A model generated the notes under the pieces. That model made no database searches and was not told the DNA's origin. It saw nothing but the letters and a program-made list of their open reading frames with translations. The position numbers and the translations under genes were made by a program. This document shows positions 3,136 to 8,268 of a stretch of DNA of 49,341 nt, piece after piece. The first letter of the stretch is position 1, and each line of letters begins with the position of its first letter. Location: NCBI GenBank assembly GCA_021776435.1, contig JAJFFW010000074.1, forward strand, positions 1 through 49,341. The letters run 5' to 3'. Source of the DNA: Parvularculaceae bacterium (GTDB lineage: Bacteria > Pseudomonadota > Alphaproteobacteria > Caulobacterales > Parvularculaceae).

Positions 3136-3271
3136 CGCCTATTTCCGGTCATGTCTCAGTTTGAAGATCGACCTTCTGCTCACACGCCCTTTCGAGCCAT
3201 TGGCAGAGGAACCTGGCGCCGGACGATTATCGCCAAAAGGCGACGTGGGGCCGTTCAAATCGAATGTCGGG

Positions 3272-3337
3272 TTACGGCTGCTTGTCCGCCGTCCAGTTCT
3301 GCGCTTTGACCTGTTCGGTGCTGCGGCGGAGGATCAT
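3272..3337 (-). pseudogene. N-terminal remnant of a tandem copy of the upstream DUF6090-like gene
   Basis: The ATG at 3337 overlaps the stop of the upstream gene as ATGA, a normal coupled-gene junction. The 21 codons read M-I-L-R-R-S-T-E-Q-V-K-A-Q-N-W-T-A and then leave the family and stop. Apart from a few substitutions these first 17 residues match the N-terminus of the full-length protein at 3334-4101 (M-L-L-R-R-I-T-E-H-V-K-A-Q-N-W-T-A). After that point no membrane helix or later homology is seen, so a second tandem copy seems to have been cut off by deletion. A short coupled leader peptide is possible but less likely. Confidence 0.7.
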
Positions 3338-4101
3338 TGTTGCTGTTCTCCGCTGTCTACCGCTTCTGCGTTGTCCGCTTGTTCCGGGACAAAGGCGGTG
3401 CCGCGACTCGCAGCCACGGTCTCACCAAGCGAGCGGATCAATTCTGACTGGCGGCGCACGATATTGCCCAGATAGGCGCGATAGCGATGCCTATTATCGG
3501 TAAAGTCGTTCAGAAACTGTGTATTGGAGGCCATCTCGTCAAACGCGCAGACTGACTCTTCCCATATCGACAGATTAAGCTGGACCAGATCAGGAAAGTT
3601 GCGCGCCAGCAATTGTCGGTCGATCTGAACATCCGTCCGCAACTGCGTCATATCTGTATTTACACCATCAAAGGAGAGGATTGCGGTACGGAGTGCATCG
3701 TCACGGATCAGCACGATGCGGCCCGTGGAAATCAACTCTTTAATTGTAGGTGGATAGAAAATAGTATTGGCGAAAATATGCGATCGCACCAGCGCCGCGC
3801 AATGCGCACCGGAAAGGGAATCCTCTCCGACACCCGTCTCAAAATAATCTTTCACCTCCTCTAACAGCACATCAATATTGCGCGTGTCGTCAAACCCTGC
3901 GTCGGCCTGCGGTGACATGTCAGCAAGCTCATGTTGGAGCCGTGCCAGATACTGCGCTTCGGTTTCGCGGTCGCTCAGCACTAGGTTCCAGTTCGAGACC
4001 TGAAGGCCGATGAAGACGCCGACCACGACAATGACAAAGTCGAGCGCGACAGCTGTCCAGTTCTGGGCTTTGACGTGTTCAGTGATGCGGCGAAGAAGCA
4101 C
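3334..4101 (-). CDS. DUF6090-like single-pass membrane protein
   Basis: The protein is 255 residues with a short cytoplasmic N-terminus, one transmembrane helix at about residues 19-37 (V-V-V-G-V-F-I-G-L-Q-V-S-N-W-N at its end), and a helical extracytoplasmic domain. The helix ending in a G-x-x-x-x-L-Q-V-[SN]-N-W-N pattern resembles the DUF6090 family of uncharacterised membrane proteins, where tandem paralogues occur. The upstream region is AT-rich and probably carries its promoter. Immediately downstream, coupled by an ATGA overlap, lies the truncated second copy. Function unknown; the family assignment rests on the N-terminal pattern. Confidence 0.75.
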   Translation of the reverse strand: MLLRRITEHVKAQNWTAVALDFVIVVVGVFIGLQVSNWNLVLSDRETEAQYLARLQHELADMSPQADAGFDDTRNIDVLLEEVKDYFETGVGEDSLSGAHCAALVRSHIFANTIFYPPTIKELISTGRIVLIRDDALRTAILSFDGVNTDMTQLRTDVQIDRQLLARNFPDLVQLNLSIWEESVCAFDEMASNTQFLNDFTDNRHRYRAYLGNIVRRQSELIRSLGETVAASRGTAFVPEQADNAEAVDSGEQQQ

Positions 4102-4447
4102 GAGTATCCCCCACTATTATCATTTTCATGCTTATAGGATTGTTTGAATGGCTTTTATAGAGCCAATAATTGTCGTTCATTATGGGTGGCCCGACTGGCG
4201 CATAAGGGCCGATAGCGTTGAAAAAGTCCGGGATTTTGGCGACGAACAGTGATTCCTTTGTTGTTGAAGTGGGACGGAAGGATTGCTGCGATGATGGGAC
4301 GTTTAGACATAAGGCGTTATAGCCGTGAATACCTCGTTTGGGCCTAATTCTAGGCACAAGCTTTTGCGGAAGGCTGAAAGGCTAACTCTGGGCAAGCAGA
4401 ACTACTGGGCTTGTAGAGTTATTAAAGTTGGCGCTTTTTGCCACTTG
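4102..4447. other. gene-free stretch between the DUF6090-like gene and the racemase gene
   Basis: No convincing coding sequence. The part next to 4102 is AT-rich and is the likely promoter region of the minus-strand DUF6090-like gene. A short inverted repeat, GCCTA-ATTC-TAGGC at 4342-4355, lies downstream of the racemase stop and could be part of its 3' end, but it has no T-run. Confidence 0.5.
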
Positions 4448-5524
4448 CTACTGTTCCTCGTCTGTGGGTTCAAAACCCGGCTGACAAAGGGGCGACGTCA
4501 TCGTGCGGAGTAAAGCGCTGTAGTTGATCTGAAATTTAATTTCATCGCCTACTGAAACATGAACACGGCCTGTATCCAAGATGAGATGGTCGCTACTAGC
4601 CCCGATGATTTCGATTCCAGGCGGCGGGGCGAGGCCAGAAGGATCGGTGTCCTGGCGCCCTATGGCGAGGATGGCTTGCGAAATAGGTCCGCGATCTGCG
4701 GTATCCAACGTCTCGCCAAAGGCATTTTGGGCGACCTCTCCCCATGGCAGCGATGGTTTTGCCTTAAATTCAATCACCTCGGCGATGAGAGTAACAGAGT
4801 CGGTATAAAGCCCTTCAATTGGCTGGCGGTGCAGAGCCTCACAGCCGAACAAAATTGATTCACCCAAACGAAGATTATTGATCCGCCCAGTGTCCACCCC
4901 GCTGAGCGCCCAATTAAGATTCGCAGAATTACCGCCGGAGACAATATCGGTGATCGGGCCGAATTTTGCGTCAATTGAATCGGCGAGTCTCGACAGCGCC
5001 GCCATGTTTGTCGTGTCCGGAGAAATGCCGTTAAGGCATCCCAGGTTCGCGCCAATTCCTTTGAATACAATATTTGGGAGGCATCGTGTCGCCTCCACAG
5101 TCTCCAGCATGTCTGCGAGCATGATCCCTTCGCGAAGGTCTCCCAATTCAACCATGAGCACGACGCCGTGAATCGTCTTTGCTTTTTGTGCGGCGGATGA
5201 AAGCTCGGCGATAATTTCAAGCTCGGTGTTGAAACTCACATCAGCATGCTTGATGACGCGGTCCGCCTGACTGAGCATCGGGGTGCGGATCAGGGTCATC
5301 GTAGACGGCACGCTTGCAAGGCGCATCCGCTCAAGATTTTCAATGTGAGAATCGCCAAGCCCGCTTACGCCCGCTCGAAGCAATGCCGAGGCGATTTTGG
5401 GTTCTCCGAGAGTTGCTTTCGTAACGCCCGTAACGCTAATGCCGGACCGCGCCAGTCGCCTGACCAGTGTGCGTGCGTTGTGTTCAATTTTGCCGAGGTC
5501 GATCTCCAGCCTCGGCGCGGTCAC
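4448..5524 (-). CDS. PLP-dependent amino-acid racemase (alanine/ornithine racemase family)
   Basis: This is a fold-III, PLP-dependent racemase of the group annotated as alanine/ornithine racemase family. The protein is 358 residues. The N-terminal barrel starts with L-E-I-D-L-x-K-I-x-x-N-A, and the PLP lysine is very likely Lys36 in V-T-G-V-T-K-A. Later segments G-[IV]-G-A-N-L-G-C, S-G-G-N-S-A-N-L and R-L-G-E-S-I-L-F-G are typical of this group. Substrate cannot be read from sequence. Its start overlaps the DUF1611 gene stop by 4 bases (ATGA), so the two proteins are almost certainly made together and probably act on the same amino acid. Confidence 0.88.
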   Translation of the reverse strand: MTAPRLEIDLGKIEHNARTLVRRLARSGISVTGVTKATLGEPKIASALLRAGVSGLGDSHIENLERMRLASVPSTMTLIRTPMLSQADRVIKHADVSFNTELEIIAELSSAAQKAKTIHGVVLMVELGDLREGIMLADMLETVEATRCLPNIVFKGIGANLGCLNGISPDTTNMAALSRLADSIDAKFGPITDIVSGGNSANLNWALSGVDTGRINNLRLGESILFGCEALHRQPIEGLYTDSVTLIAEVIEFKAKPSLPWGEVAQNAFGETLDTADRGPISQAILAIGRQDTDPSGLAPPPGIEIIGASSDHLILDTGRVHVSVGDEIKFQINYSALLRTMTSPLCQPGFEPTDEEQ

Positions 5525-6720
5525 TGGATGGTTGCGATCAATTTCCGCTCCAGCTCCGGAAATGCCGAAAGAACCATCTGCACAAGACGTTCGGGAGATT
5601 TAGTCAGCGCATCGGTAACCGGGATGTCGAGTTCAGCCTCATAATGCTTGATGGCGTTGTCTACATCATCTTCCGTCATATTTTCATGGTTGATCGTCAG
5701 CCCAATGACCTCCGTATCGCTAAAAATCTGGATGAGATTGATCTCACTGGCTGGCGTCGGCATAGCCATCTGATCGAAATCAATCCTATGAGCGCGTCGC
5801 GGCGCATGCTGTAAAATGACGCCCTGCGGACGGCTGCCCCTCAGGATGAACGACGAGGTCGAGTATGCAGGGTGACTTAACGAGCCCTGCCCTTCGACAA
5901 TGATAATATCCGGGTCTTCTTCTTCGAATGCTTCAAGAACAGCAGCTTCCATTTCACCAGAGCAGAATTGCGACGGGACCGCATCAAGTGCAACGCCATA
6001 TCGGGCGCCCTGAATCAAGCCTGTCTGTCCCGTGCCGACCAAAACAGCTTTTATACCGCAATCATTGAGGGCGGAGGTCAGGATCGTGGCCGTGGTGCGC
6101 TTTCCGATCGCACAATCGGTGCCGAACACCGCGATGCGCGGACACGTGACATCAGAGATGCGATCGCTGAATAGGTGAAGGTCTTTCTTATCGCGCGGCC
6201 TGCGAACATCGATGATTTTCACATTGTTCGCAGCGCTCGCGGCCGCAAACTCCGGGTCCTCGTTCAGGAACTCATGCAGGCCATTCACGATGCTCATCCC
6301 GCGGTCGATAGCTTCGAGCACAATAGACCGTTCGCGCATCGATAACATGCCGCTCGATGGCGCAATTCCGAAGATGAAATAATCTGGAACAACGCCTGCA
6401 TGCGTCAATGCGTCGGCAAGATTACGAACAATTGGAATTGCGTTCGGTTCTTCATCCAACACAAAGCCCGAATCCTGGCCGGCTTTTTCACTGTCAATAA
6501 CCGAAAGGATTAGATACTTCTCAGAATGGCGAACAAGCCCGTTAGCGGTCTTACCGTCAATGGCGCCAAAGTTTGCTTCGCAATAAATAGTGGCCGTGGG
6601 GTTTAATTTCGATCGAATGTGCGAGTTTACTTGCATGTAAATCGCGATATCTTCAAGTCGGATATTGTCCGGTTGAATCTTCAAAGCTGGTGATGGTGTG
6701 GCAAGGTTTACAATGGTCAT
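5521..6720 (-). CDS. DUF1611 family protein (DgcN-like, P-loop)
   Basis: This 399-residue protein has the two-part architecture of the DUF1611 family: an N-terminal Rossmann-like part and a C-terminal P-loop part with G-T-D-C-A-I-G-K-R-T-T-A (about residue 195), followed by G-T-G-Q-T-G and I-V-E-G-Q-G-S-L-S-H-P-A-Y-S. Some family members have been described as DgcN, which acts on D-glutamate in marine proteobacteria; whether this protein has that activity is inference. A ribosome binding site AAGGAA precedes the ATG. It is the first gene of a two-gene operon with the PLP racemase. In the DgcN system the partner is an enolase-superfamily epimerase (DgcA), not a PLP enzyme, so the pairing here differs. 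Confidence 0.85.
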   Translation of the reverse strand: MTIVNLATPSPALKIQPDNIRLEDIAIYMQVNSHIRSKLNPTATIYCEANFGAIDGKTANGLVRHSEKYLILSVIDSEKAGQDSGFVLDEEPNAIPIVRNLADALTHAGVVPDYFIFGIAPSSGMLSMRERSIVLEAIDRGMSIVNGLHEFLNEDPEFAAASAANNVKIIDVRRPRDKKDLHLFSDRISDVTCPRIAVFGTDCAIGKRTTATILTSALNDCGIKAVLVGTGQTGLIQGARYGVALDAVPSQFCSGEMEAAVLEAFEEEDPDIIIVEGQGSLSHPAYSTSSFILRGSRPQGVILQHAPRRAHRIDFDQMAMPTPASEINLIQIFSDTEVIGLTINHENMTEDDVDNAIKHYEAELDIPVTDALTKSPERLVQMVLSAFPELERKLIATIQ

Positions 6721-6817
6721 TCAAATTCCTTTGATTTCAAGCAATATGGACGCCTTCAGAAACACCACCACTCCCACTTGAATAATGAAGGGAACATAAA
6801 CCAGGAGGCAAAGTCTC

Positions 6818-7006
6818 TTAGCTTATAGAATTCTGGCGCCGCGCTTGAGCAATCGCGTCTTTTAAATCCGTATAACGATATTTTCCGCAATAGAAGTAAT
6901 CGGCCGGCGTTCCCGTGATGCCGTATTTCACCATTTCCCGGTGTCTTCGGAATTCATTGTTGAATGAGCGTGGTCTCGGTCTTCGCCCGTCATGTTGTGT
7001 CCTCAA
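6818..7006 (-). CDS. small hypothetical protein
   Basis: An open frame of up to 62 codons. Its second half (Y-G-I-T-G-T-P-A-D-Y-F, then K-Y-R-Y-T-D-L-K-D-A-I-A-Q-A) has balanced, protein-like composition and resembles short conserved alphaproteobacterial hypothetical proteins that end in a [RK]-Y-T-x-L-x-D-A-x-A-Q-A segment. The longest form would start at a TTG (7006). An in-frame ATG at 6934 would give only 38 residues. No strong ribosome binding site was seen for either. Function unknown. Confidence 0.45.
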   Translation of the reverse strand: MRTQHDGRRPRPRSFNNEFRRHREMVKYGITGTPADYFYCGKYRYTDLKDAIAQARRQNSIS

Positions 7007-7059
7007 TGTTCCAGCACAGTAAATCTTCAGCCTAGCCGTTTTAGGCCTCGAAACCGGCG

Positions 7060-7296
7060 TTACGCCTCTCGCTCGAACGCCGGTAATTTCTTTCTCTTTG
7101 CTGCTTTGGTCTTTTTGTCCGGCTTTGCTGCTTCGGCAGCGCGGTCTTCGGCTTCTTTTGCGAGGCGCAATTCTTTTAACCTTTCCGTCTTCTCTAGCGT
7201 CGCTTTACGGGCTTTTTCAGCATCGGATACCGCCGCCTTTTTTTCCATTTCACGAAAAAACTTACTAGAAGGCTGCGTATTCGTTGGCTTCACCAT
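7060..7296 (-). CDS. small basic, highly charged helical protein
   Basis: The 78-residue protein is rich in Lys, Glu and Ala (E-M-E-K-K-A-A-V-S-D-A-E-K-A-R-K and similar) with a Lys/Arg-rich tail (P-D-K-K-T-K-A-A-K-R-K-K). It should form one long amphipathic or coiled helix and may bind nucleic acid or stay unstructured at the end. A ribosome binding site GGGG lies 4-5 bases before the ATG. It lies in a cluster of very small minus-strand genes. Low-complexity composition makes family assignment unsafe. Confidence 0.5.
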   Translation of the reverse strand: MVKPTNTQPSSKFFREMEKKAAVSDAEKARKATLEKTERLKELRLAKEAEDRAAEAAKPDKKTKAAKRKKLPAFEREA

Positions 7297-7554
7297 ATTA
7301 CCCCTTTCAACTTTCCTCTTTAGACCTGAGTCACAAGCCCAACGAAGCCCGATGTTTAGATTTCAACACATAGATTTCCGCTGCGGCGTAAGGGCCGGCA
7401 AACCTCGTGATAAATGTGGACGGAAATCGCACAGTCATATTCCTTTATTTATCTCGACTTTTATGCACAAAACCTCCGTCGTTTCGCCGGAAGGCGAAAT
7501 GCCCGGATAATTGATTCCCATCTAAATAATCAGCAGACGGAAACGACGAACGGA

Positions 7555-7725
7555 TTAACTCTTAACGTCTTCGTTTTTTTTGAGCTCGGCTTTGGAAAGC
7601 GGCCCTATCACCTTTGAGGTATCTTCTGTGGCAGCCGATTTTGGCGCGACCGTCGCAGCGGCGTCATTCGCAGGTGTATTTGCGTTGGCGGGTTAGTCTT
7701 TTGACTTCTCTCTAAATCTAATCAT
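7555..7725 (-). pseudogene. small gene with an in-frame TAA at codon 11
   Basis: From an ATG at 7725 the frame reads M-I-R-F-R-E-K-S-K-D, then TAA at 7693-7695, then stays open for 45 more codons (P-A-N-A-N-T-P-A-N-D-A-A-A-T-V-A-A-P-K-S..., ending K-K-N-E-D-V-K-S) to a TAA at 7555. The downstream part is Ala/Thr/Lys-rich like a real small disordered protein. A single CAA-to-TAA change would explain the stop. An AGGA motif lies upstream at somewhat long spacing. It could be a recently dead gene or only chance; low complexity limits certainty. Confidence 0.4.
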
Positions 7726-8268
7726 GTATGGTTTATTCCTGAAATAAGGCTCTTCGACGTGACGGTCGTCACGCCGAGCGTAATTCAAATTGCTGCTAAT
7801 CCTCGCTCATATGGGCCAGCAACAACGTCAATTTTTCGCAAGAATATCAAAACAGCGTGCAATCAATGCGCGATAGCATTTGCAATGCCTCGTCTCCCGA
7901 ACATAGGGATGTTTGAGCGGATTTCAACCTAAGGCGAAGCTATATTGTTCCGAGGTCGGTTTTGAACCGCCTTTGCTGCCTATGCCGCTGTTTCATGTTG
8001 GGGGCTCAAACGAACAGGAATACATACGTCCGCCTCCGATGCCGTTCCTGCCGTCGAAGAATAACTTCATAAATGGCTTTCTTGGAGATCTATCTGCCGT
8101 TCAGATTCGCGTAAGGGATGACTGAAATGGGCCAAACCCGGTCTTGCCGTTCCTCCTCACCCAAAGGCAGGATCAACCCAAACCAGCCCTCGGCTTTCGG
8201 ACTAAAACACGACCGGCTTCGTCCACCGGTTGCCGATCGGGCGCGATATCTTTAAAGCCTTGGCTTTG
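7726..8268. other. gene-free stretch upstream of pyrB
   Basis: About 540 bases without a convincing gene. An open frame at 7913-8125 has no good ribosome binding site and unremarkable content, so I do not call it. A short inverted repeat CGTGAC-GGTC-GTCACG lies near 7759. The right end should hold the pyrB promoter, but I cannot point to clear -35/-10 boxes. Confidence 0.4.

Follow-up and report, generated by a model that had tools for sequence, protein, structure and literature searches.

A conserved gene pair of a DUF1611 protein and a PLP racemase, possibly a mobile cassette for racemisation followed by N-modification

What does a DUF1611 protein do when the gene translated after it encodes a PLP racemase? 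To our knowledge, the only DUF1611 route known is DgcN–DgcA. Two papers present DgcN as a gene of D-glutamate use (PMC12363236, PMC10845958), and the former describes the route as one that racemises acidic D-amino acids and their amides irreversibly. The window, by which we mean the whole stretch of DNA that was analysed (49,341 nucleotides), contains a DUF1611 gene with a different neighbour. The following features frame the question:

5521-6720, minus strand: DUF1611 gene, 399 aa, ATG start
4448-5524, minus strand: PLP racemase gene of the Orr group, 358 aa, GTG start
5521..5524, minus strand: overlap of the DUF1611 stop codon (TGA) with the racemase start codon (GTG), read from the bases as GTGA
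6818..7006, minus strand: small ORF, about 62 aa with an uncertain start, lying between DUF1611 and the small basic protein
7060..7296, minus strand: small basic protein of 78 aa upstream of the pair, start codon chosen by eye
3136..8229, no strand: interval that contains the insert, with pyrB on one side and the ruvX and 120-aa genes on the other

Both open reading frames were found on the minus strand where the original prediction had placed them. It had also described a four-base overlap with the sequence ATGA; the overlap is there, and its bases are GTGA. Such an overlap is likely to couple the translation of the two genes. Stretches similar to the small basic protein occur 5′ of the pair in two relatives (66% over 98 in L016 and 42% over 78 in L017), as do stretches similar to the small ORF. 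The same insert holds a 255-aa ORF (window 3334-4101) without a Pfam or NCBIfam match.

We scanned one genome per species, which gave 142 stretches and 125 relatives, and kept the best 80 of the 125; these lean to close relatives, with DUF1611 proteins 64–81% identical to that of the window. In 73 of the 80 loci, the racemase gene lies directly 3′ of DUF1611 and on its strand (68 of these racemases align over at least 300 residues and 5 are cut by a contig end). Counting epimerase or racemase neighbours also yields 73 of 80, for a different set that misses L016 (34 aa, contig end) and includes a remnant in L066. Among the exceptions, L055 and L066 have what by eye are decayed racemase stretches (24 bits in L066), L089 has an Alr-type racemase directly downstream instead, and four actinobacterial loci (L077, L084, L085 and L087) have DUF1611 with no racemase detected. 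Scored for 67 of the 73 pairs, with start codons picked by rule, the overlap is 4 bases in 50 pairs (ATGA, GTGA or TTGA) and 1 base in 11. Distances between DUF1611 proteins and between racemases are correlated (r = 0.72 over 63 loci; best of 1,000 permutations, 0.32).

The window alone does not exclude a chance adjacency of two unrelated genes, but the 73 of 80 loci, the conserved overlap and the correlated distances rule this out, leaving it a negligible probability. The DUF1611 protein and the PLP racemase are a real, conserved two-gene unit, and the neighbourhood check that the original prediction called for thereby came out in its favour. No known, named operon that would account for the pair turned up in openly licensed PMC papers, nor did any description there of DUF1611 together with the racemase. 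An apparent natural fusion of the two (a 716-aa ORF in L068) was rejected, its coordinates being those of the racemase frame read back over DUF1611.

The unit is spread over several phyla. Phylum labels on 74 tree rows comprise 34 Pseudomonadota, 14 Actinomycetota, 11 Verrucomicrobiota, 9 Planctomycetota, 3 Acidobacteriota and one each of Omnitrophota, Gemmatimonadota and Myxococcota. The titles of 72 of the 80 loci are labelled MAG, so single taxon labels may be wrong; isolates among the loci include Persicirhabdus sediminis, Denitromonas ohlonensis, Maritalea myrionectae and Oricola nitratireducens.

None of the 80 racemase-kind loci has an enolase-type epimerase within 400 bp of DUF1611, whereas DgcN-type loci, drawn from relatives and from the phylum, have one in 36 of 39 cases and a racemase in 0 of 39. 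Three sub-cut-off matches (L012–L014) were left out of these 39, and 19 further places without a locus of their own were not used (G046 and G037 are in the set otherwise, as are G050 and the window). The predicted pairing with a PLP racemase in place of the usual epimerase therefore holds: the partner belongs to the ornithine-racemase group and is not of the enolase type. In a quick, midpoint-rooted tree of 128 DUF1611 rows, 81 racemase-linked rows and 7 rows without a racemase fall on one side and 34 DgcN-type rows on the opposite one; a haloarchaeal DUF1611 encoded between two dipeptide epimerases branches nearest to the racemase-linked side, and L130, L131 and the phage rows sit on long branches. 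Seven near-copies or cut rows were dropped from the tree (L010, L016, L064, L085, L087, L117 and L121), two of them without a racemase. Viewed by eye, the tree seemed to mix organisms strongly, an impression that was not upheld: phylum labels change 12 times over the 74 rows (least possible, 7; shuffled mean, 37), and phyla mostly cluster. As far as this quick tree shows, transfer between phyla appears to have happened, and to have been limited or old rather than rampant.

The protein itself is a full member of its family. Both DUF1611 domains (PF07755 and PF17396) exceed their gathering scores in the window protein (DUF1611_C, 231.8 bits; DUF1611_N, 93.4 bits), and the predicted model (mean pLDDT 82.9) has a low-confidence N-terminus (residues 1-37), a Rossmann-like N-terminal domain and a P-loop C-terminal domain. 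Its nearest folds are the DUF1611 proteins Ava_3511 (2obn, Z 36.2) and TM0796 (2g0t, Z 35.2), followed by DgcN (7xrj, Z 32.6). By sequence, too, TM0796 and Ava_3511 are the solved structures closest to it (158.7 and 126.6 bits, respectively), with 31–32% identity over the structural alignment. The protein shares with DgcN the DUF1611 fold, an intact P-loop (here GTDCAIGKRTT at 200-210) and 39 residues fixed in both groups, which include the P-loop and the TGQT and EGQG motifs. It differs from DgcN in its PLP-racemase partner, in its separate tree group, in falling below the 480-bit cut-off of the DgcN profile NF041892 (window, 165.8; L015, 173.6; L092, 163.5) and at 14 positions that are fixed to different residues in the two groups. 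The simplest reading of the shared and differing residues is that the reaction core has been kept and the substrate pocket may have changed. Neither window protein matches the PADLOC anti-phage defence profiles, and a role in such defence was rejected.

The fold also bears on what the DUF1611 enzyme does. It might be an ATP-using enzyme with a P-loop like those of BioD and MinD that ligates or carboxylates a D-amino acid and is not an acetyltransferase: after DUF1611 proteins and DgcN, the best structural matches listed are P-loop ATPases (ApbC, MinD and dethiobiotin synthetase, Z 12.8–14.7), and the Walker A motif is intact in 38 of 38 aligned rows. Yet DgcN, the nearest characterised relative, has the same P-loop and core residues and is named an N-acetyltransferase in both the 7xrj title and NCBIfam, and we regard ATP-dependent ligation or carboxylation as unlikely.

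The racemase is close to, and distinct from, described groups. It matches Ala_racemase_N (75.6 bits) with no Pfam match to Ala_racemase_C. Its match to the ornithine racemase (Orr) profile NF040742 spans nearly the full length and stays below the 480-bit cut-off (window, 348; L015, 347.3; L092, 384.2). The predicted PLP lysine is K36, and an annotated Ilyobacter Orr has the same residue at 19 of 23 printed positions (K36, E132, N160, C163, G197-S200, R219, E249, E252, K256, P257, G289, D292, D312, H313 and Y335). The protein thus resembles Orr in its PLP lysine and most Orr-group residues, and differs in its sub-cut-off score, in four positions (126, 205, 214 and 222) and in gene partner and context. 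With Alr it shares the overall fold (6g59_B, E 2.2e-22, 18% identity) and the PLP lysine; it differs in scoring 23.8 bits against the Alr profile TIGR00492 (cut-off, 168 bits) and in the absence of Ala_racemase_C. The structures listed as nearest to its predicted model (pLDDT 93.6) are alanine racemases and D-threonine or beta-hydroxyaspartate aldolases, at 14–19% identity. Eight genomes that carry the pair were checked; every one encodes an Alr of its own that exceeds the cut-off, which rules out that the racemase of the pair is the housekeeping alanine racemase, and every one has a single DUF1611 gene.

D-amino acids take part in wall remodelling, and the racemase could supply them for cell-wall editing or for release, with DUF1611 as a side activity or a regulator. 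The Alr-type racemase that takes the usual one's place in L089 fits this idea. However, the usual racemase has no signal peptide by eye, and DUF1611 persists where the racemase has decayed or was not detected, so it does not look secondary; we consider a cell-wall role very improbable.

How, then, might the two enzymes work together? The substrate of DgcA is an N-acetylated product, and PLP racemases work through an aldimine made with the free alpha-amine of an amino acid. Because it needs this free amine, the racemase could not copy the step of DgcA on an N-acetylated substrate, and racemisation would therefore precede N-modification. The original prediction suggested that the stereochemical step may fall to the racemase; as a simple stand-in for DgcA this enzyme fails, and the order of steps must differ. 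We propose that the racemase converts a free amino acid back and forth between L and D, and that the DUF1611 enzyme goes on to modify one of the two isomers at its amino group, in the simplest case by N-acetylating the D form, as reported for DgcN. N-modification would pull the reversible racemisation towards an N-acyl-D-amino acid, giving a route from L-X through D-X to N-modified D-X (or its mirror image) that ends in a modified amino acid and not in L-X. The product may serve adaptation to stress, a role that we propose because some plasmid copies sit in clusters of stress genes.

Taken as a whole, this reading (a mobile, translationally coupled cassette that racemises and then N-modifies, with an N-acyl-D-amino acid as its product, perhaps for stress) is our tentative preference, at a confidence somewhat short of even; its step order, acetyl transfer, substrate and role are all inferred. 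A more specific version, in which an undescribed N-acyl-D-amino acid such as N-acetyl-D-ornithine or -lysine acts as a stress solute or protectant and its genes spread through plasmids and stress islands, seems to us quite unlikely; if true, two genes would suffice to turn common amino acids into a protective metabolite, and the cassette would travel on such elements. Among specific products, one of this stress-linked kind is nevertheless our first guess, at low confidence. The unit differs from DgcN–DgcA in its partner, a chemically different one throughout this group of DUF1611 proteins, and so most likely in its chemistry: with such a partner the steps must follow another order, and what they yield is then most likely another product. 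As the cassette consists of only two genes and is conserved, the identity of its product is a well-defined question that can be put to the test quickly.

The pair might instead be catabolic, bringing D-amino acids, free or released from peptides by a peptidase where one is present, into metabolism, with DUF1611 N-acylating an intermediate. This would suit the description of DgcN as a gene of D-glutamate use in PMC12363236 and PMC10845958, and 6 of the 80 loci have an M81 (MlrC-like) metallopeptidase near the pair; of these six, one is only a 182-residue match and two are the search queries themselves. The metallopeptidases are alike across groups (77% in L024 and 68% in L039), and the gene is directly 3′ of the racemase in L053 and L024. 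Against 1 of 40 control regions (a match at 29% identity), however, the enrichment is not significant (p = 0.42), and no family of transporters or peptidases is shared by the surroundings of most loci. Moreover, the conversion of D into L would need nothing beyond the racemase, and spending acyl-CoA on it would be wasteful. We hold the catabolic role to be doubtful, though deserving of serious weight.

A neighbour scan of 263 of 276 selected ORFs (5 longer than 1,200 aa and 8 apparently spurious ones were excluded) offered no candidate for a third obligate gene, no family among the matches listed having more than five members in either half. The top families listed are M81 (5), Band_7 (4), a hydrolase-fold group (4) and ABC2 membrane proteins (4). 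Orphan ORFs behind the pair in L053, L024 and L068 have no relatives among the 80 loci.

Returning to the racemise-then-modify cassette, a first piece of evidence for its mobility comes from the locus itself. We compared 10 ruvX–pyrB regions out of 34 other genomes of the family with a pyrB match. The two genes keep the same order in all 10, and DUF1611 and the racemase are absent between them in every case, in line with the predicted insertion at this site. The gap between ruvX and pyrB is 0.4–1.3 kb in eight relatives, about 3.4 and 6.7 kb in the other two, and 5.46 kb in the window. A DUF1611 of the window's kind occurs in 2 of the 37 genomes of the family that were searched, the window's own and G020, in which the pair and pyrB sit on different contigs (the G020 locus, L009, is the same contig as L015 and adds no further case). 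Deviant base composition of the coding genes of the insert was rejected on the GC contents of DUF1611 (51.5%) and the racemase (54.7%), set against 54.0% for the window; the stretch 6721-8229 has 48.4%.

Plasmids carry the pair as well. Eight have a DUF1611 of the window's kind (55–62% identity), and the racemase adjoins it in seven; on the V. coralliilyticus plasmid, DUF1611 stands without a detected racemase. The insert, the patchy presence, the carriage on plasmids and the different site in G020 speak for a cassette able to move between genomes.

Stress genes lie near five of the eight plasmid copies: GroESL and two Hsp20 genes in V. europaeus, NhaA and HflKC in both V. parahaemolyticus and Ruegeria conchae, GroESL in Phaeobacter porticola, and HflKC 66 bases behind DUF1611 in V. 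coralliilyticus. None were seen near the copies of V. cyclitrophicus, V. lentus and Aliiroseovarius (within 6-kb flanks for the first and last). The plasmid HflK near DUF1611 is of a distinct type, found on 17 plasmids at 60% identity or above; in a set of 21 genomes, made up of that of the window and those of its relatives, 17 have HflK copies that are 31–39% identical to it. Among the matches listed, 3 of the 17 HflK plasmids carry a window-kind DUF1611 and 3 (Roseibium) carry partial racemases. The cluster of Roseovarius indicus resembles that of P. porticola, with HflKC occupying the place of the pair.

Off plasmids, the association fades. HflKC or GroES/GroEL occurs near 5 of the 80 genome loci and 0 of 40 DgcN-type control regions (p = 0.17), and neither Hsp20 nor NhaA has a match near the 80. 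The controls were from Pseudomonadota; all 40 contain DUF1611, 38 have the epimerase within 1.5 kb and none has a racemase match. A Cys-rich protein is encoded near 7 of the 80 loci and near none of the controls (p = 0.09). All markers together give 12 of 80 against 0 of 40 (p = 0.008), for a set pooled after the fact, in which the stress markers had been picked after the plasmids were seen and the Cys-rich protein had first been seen in the test loci. These 12 loci comprise 5 with HflKC or GroES/GroEL and 7 with the Cys-rich protein (three overlap), and 3 with only a weak small-protein match. The link of the pair to stress is suggestive only, and weak off plasmids. As in the transmissible locus of stress tolerance (tLST), clusters of chaperone, protease-modulator and antiporter genes surround some plasmid copies; the gene content of tLST differs from that of the clusters bearing DUF1611 and the racemase, and only a minority of pairs is known to sit in such clusters.

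The Cys-rich protein has a repeat structure, and examples are placed as follows:

L139:17099-17863: Cys-rich repeat protein
L015:8917-9705: Cys-rich repeat protein
L033, L050, L065 and L075: further copies

It accompanies the pair in 7 of 80 loci and on 3 of the 8 plasmids, and is carried by 28 plasmids overall, including those of Rhizobium and Ensifer. Both copies examined for domains have an EGF-like Pfam match over the cut-off, and a signal sequence is apparent by eye. The protein is also present in L015, L016 and, at a contig edge, L017; the insert of the window contains no matching stretch. Marine and other plasmids (L164, L165, L167 and L150) carry varying sets of GroESL, HflKC, NhaA and Crp/Fnr genes, mixed with transglutaminase-like, desaturase and cold-shock genes, and these clusters may be stress-tolerance islands.

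Some copies of DUF1611 have no detected racemase partner. In seven similar viral contigs (L143–L149), an NhaA gene lies just upstream of a DUF1611 (51–52% to that of the window) with no racemase detected; in one of them (L146:5029-17085), a P22-like portal, a UmuDC-type pair and Zorya II genes surround the orphan. As DUF1611 is present with no detected racemase in the four actinobacterial loci, in V. coralliilyticus and in these seven viral contigs, it can act without the racemase. More distant relatives are found in 34 records of Erwinia and Dickeya phages (26–28% among the matches listed). Two phage genes (L141:4899-5975 and L142:5001-6056) are annotated as hypothetical, and neither stretch contains a racemase match near them. 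A Vibrio nigripulchritudo plasmid encodes a DUF1611 (L130:5893-7062, 39%) that has lost the P-loop motif kept in nine other printed rows and has EGHG in place of EGQG; from these changes, it may be a non-enzymatic relative.

In three verrucomicrobial loci, a related gene lies 3′ of the pair (L046:12195-12857, L055:11598-12359 and L058:11601-12248). In L055 it follows DUF1611 with racemase remnants, and the copy in L058 matches 2OG-Fe(II) oxygenases.
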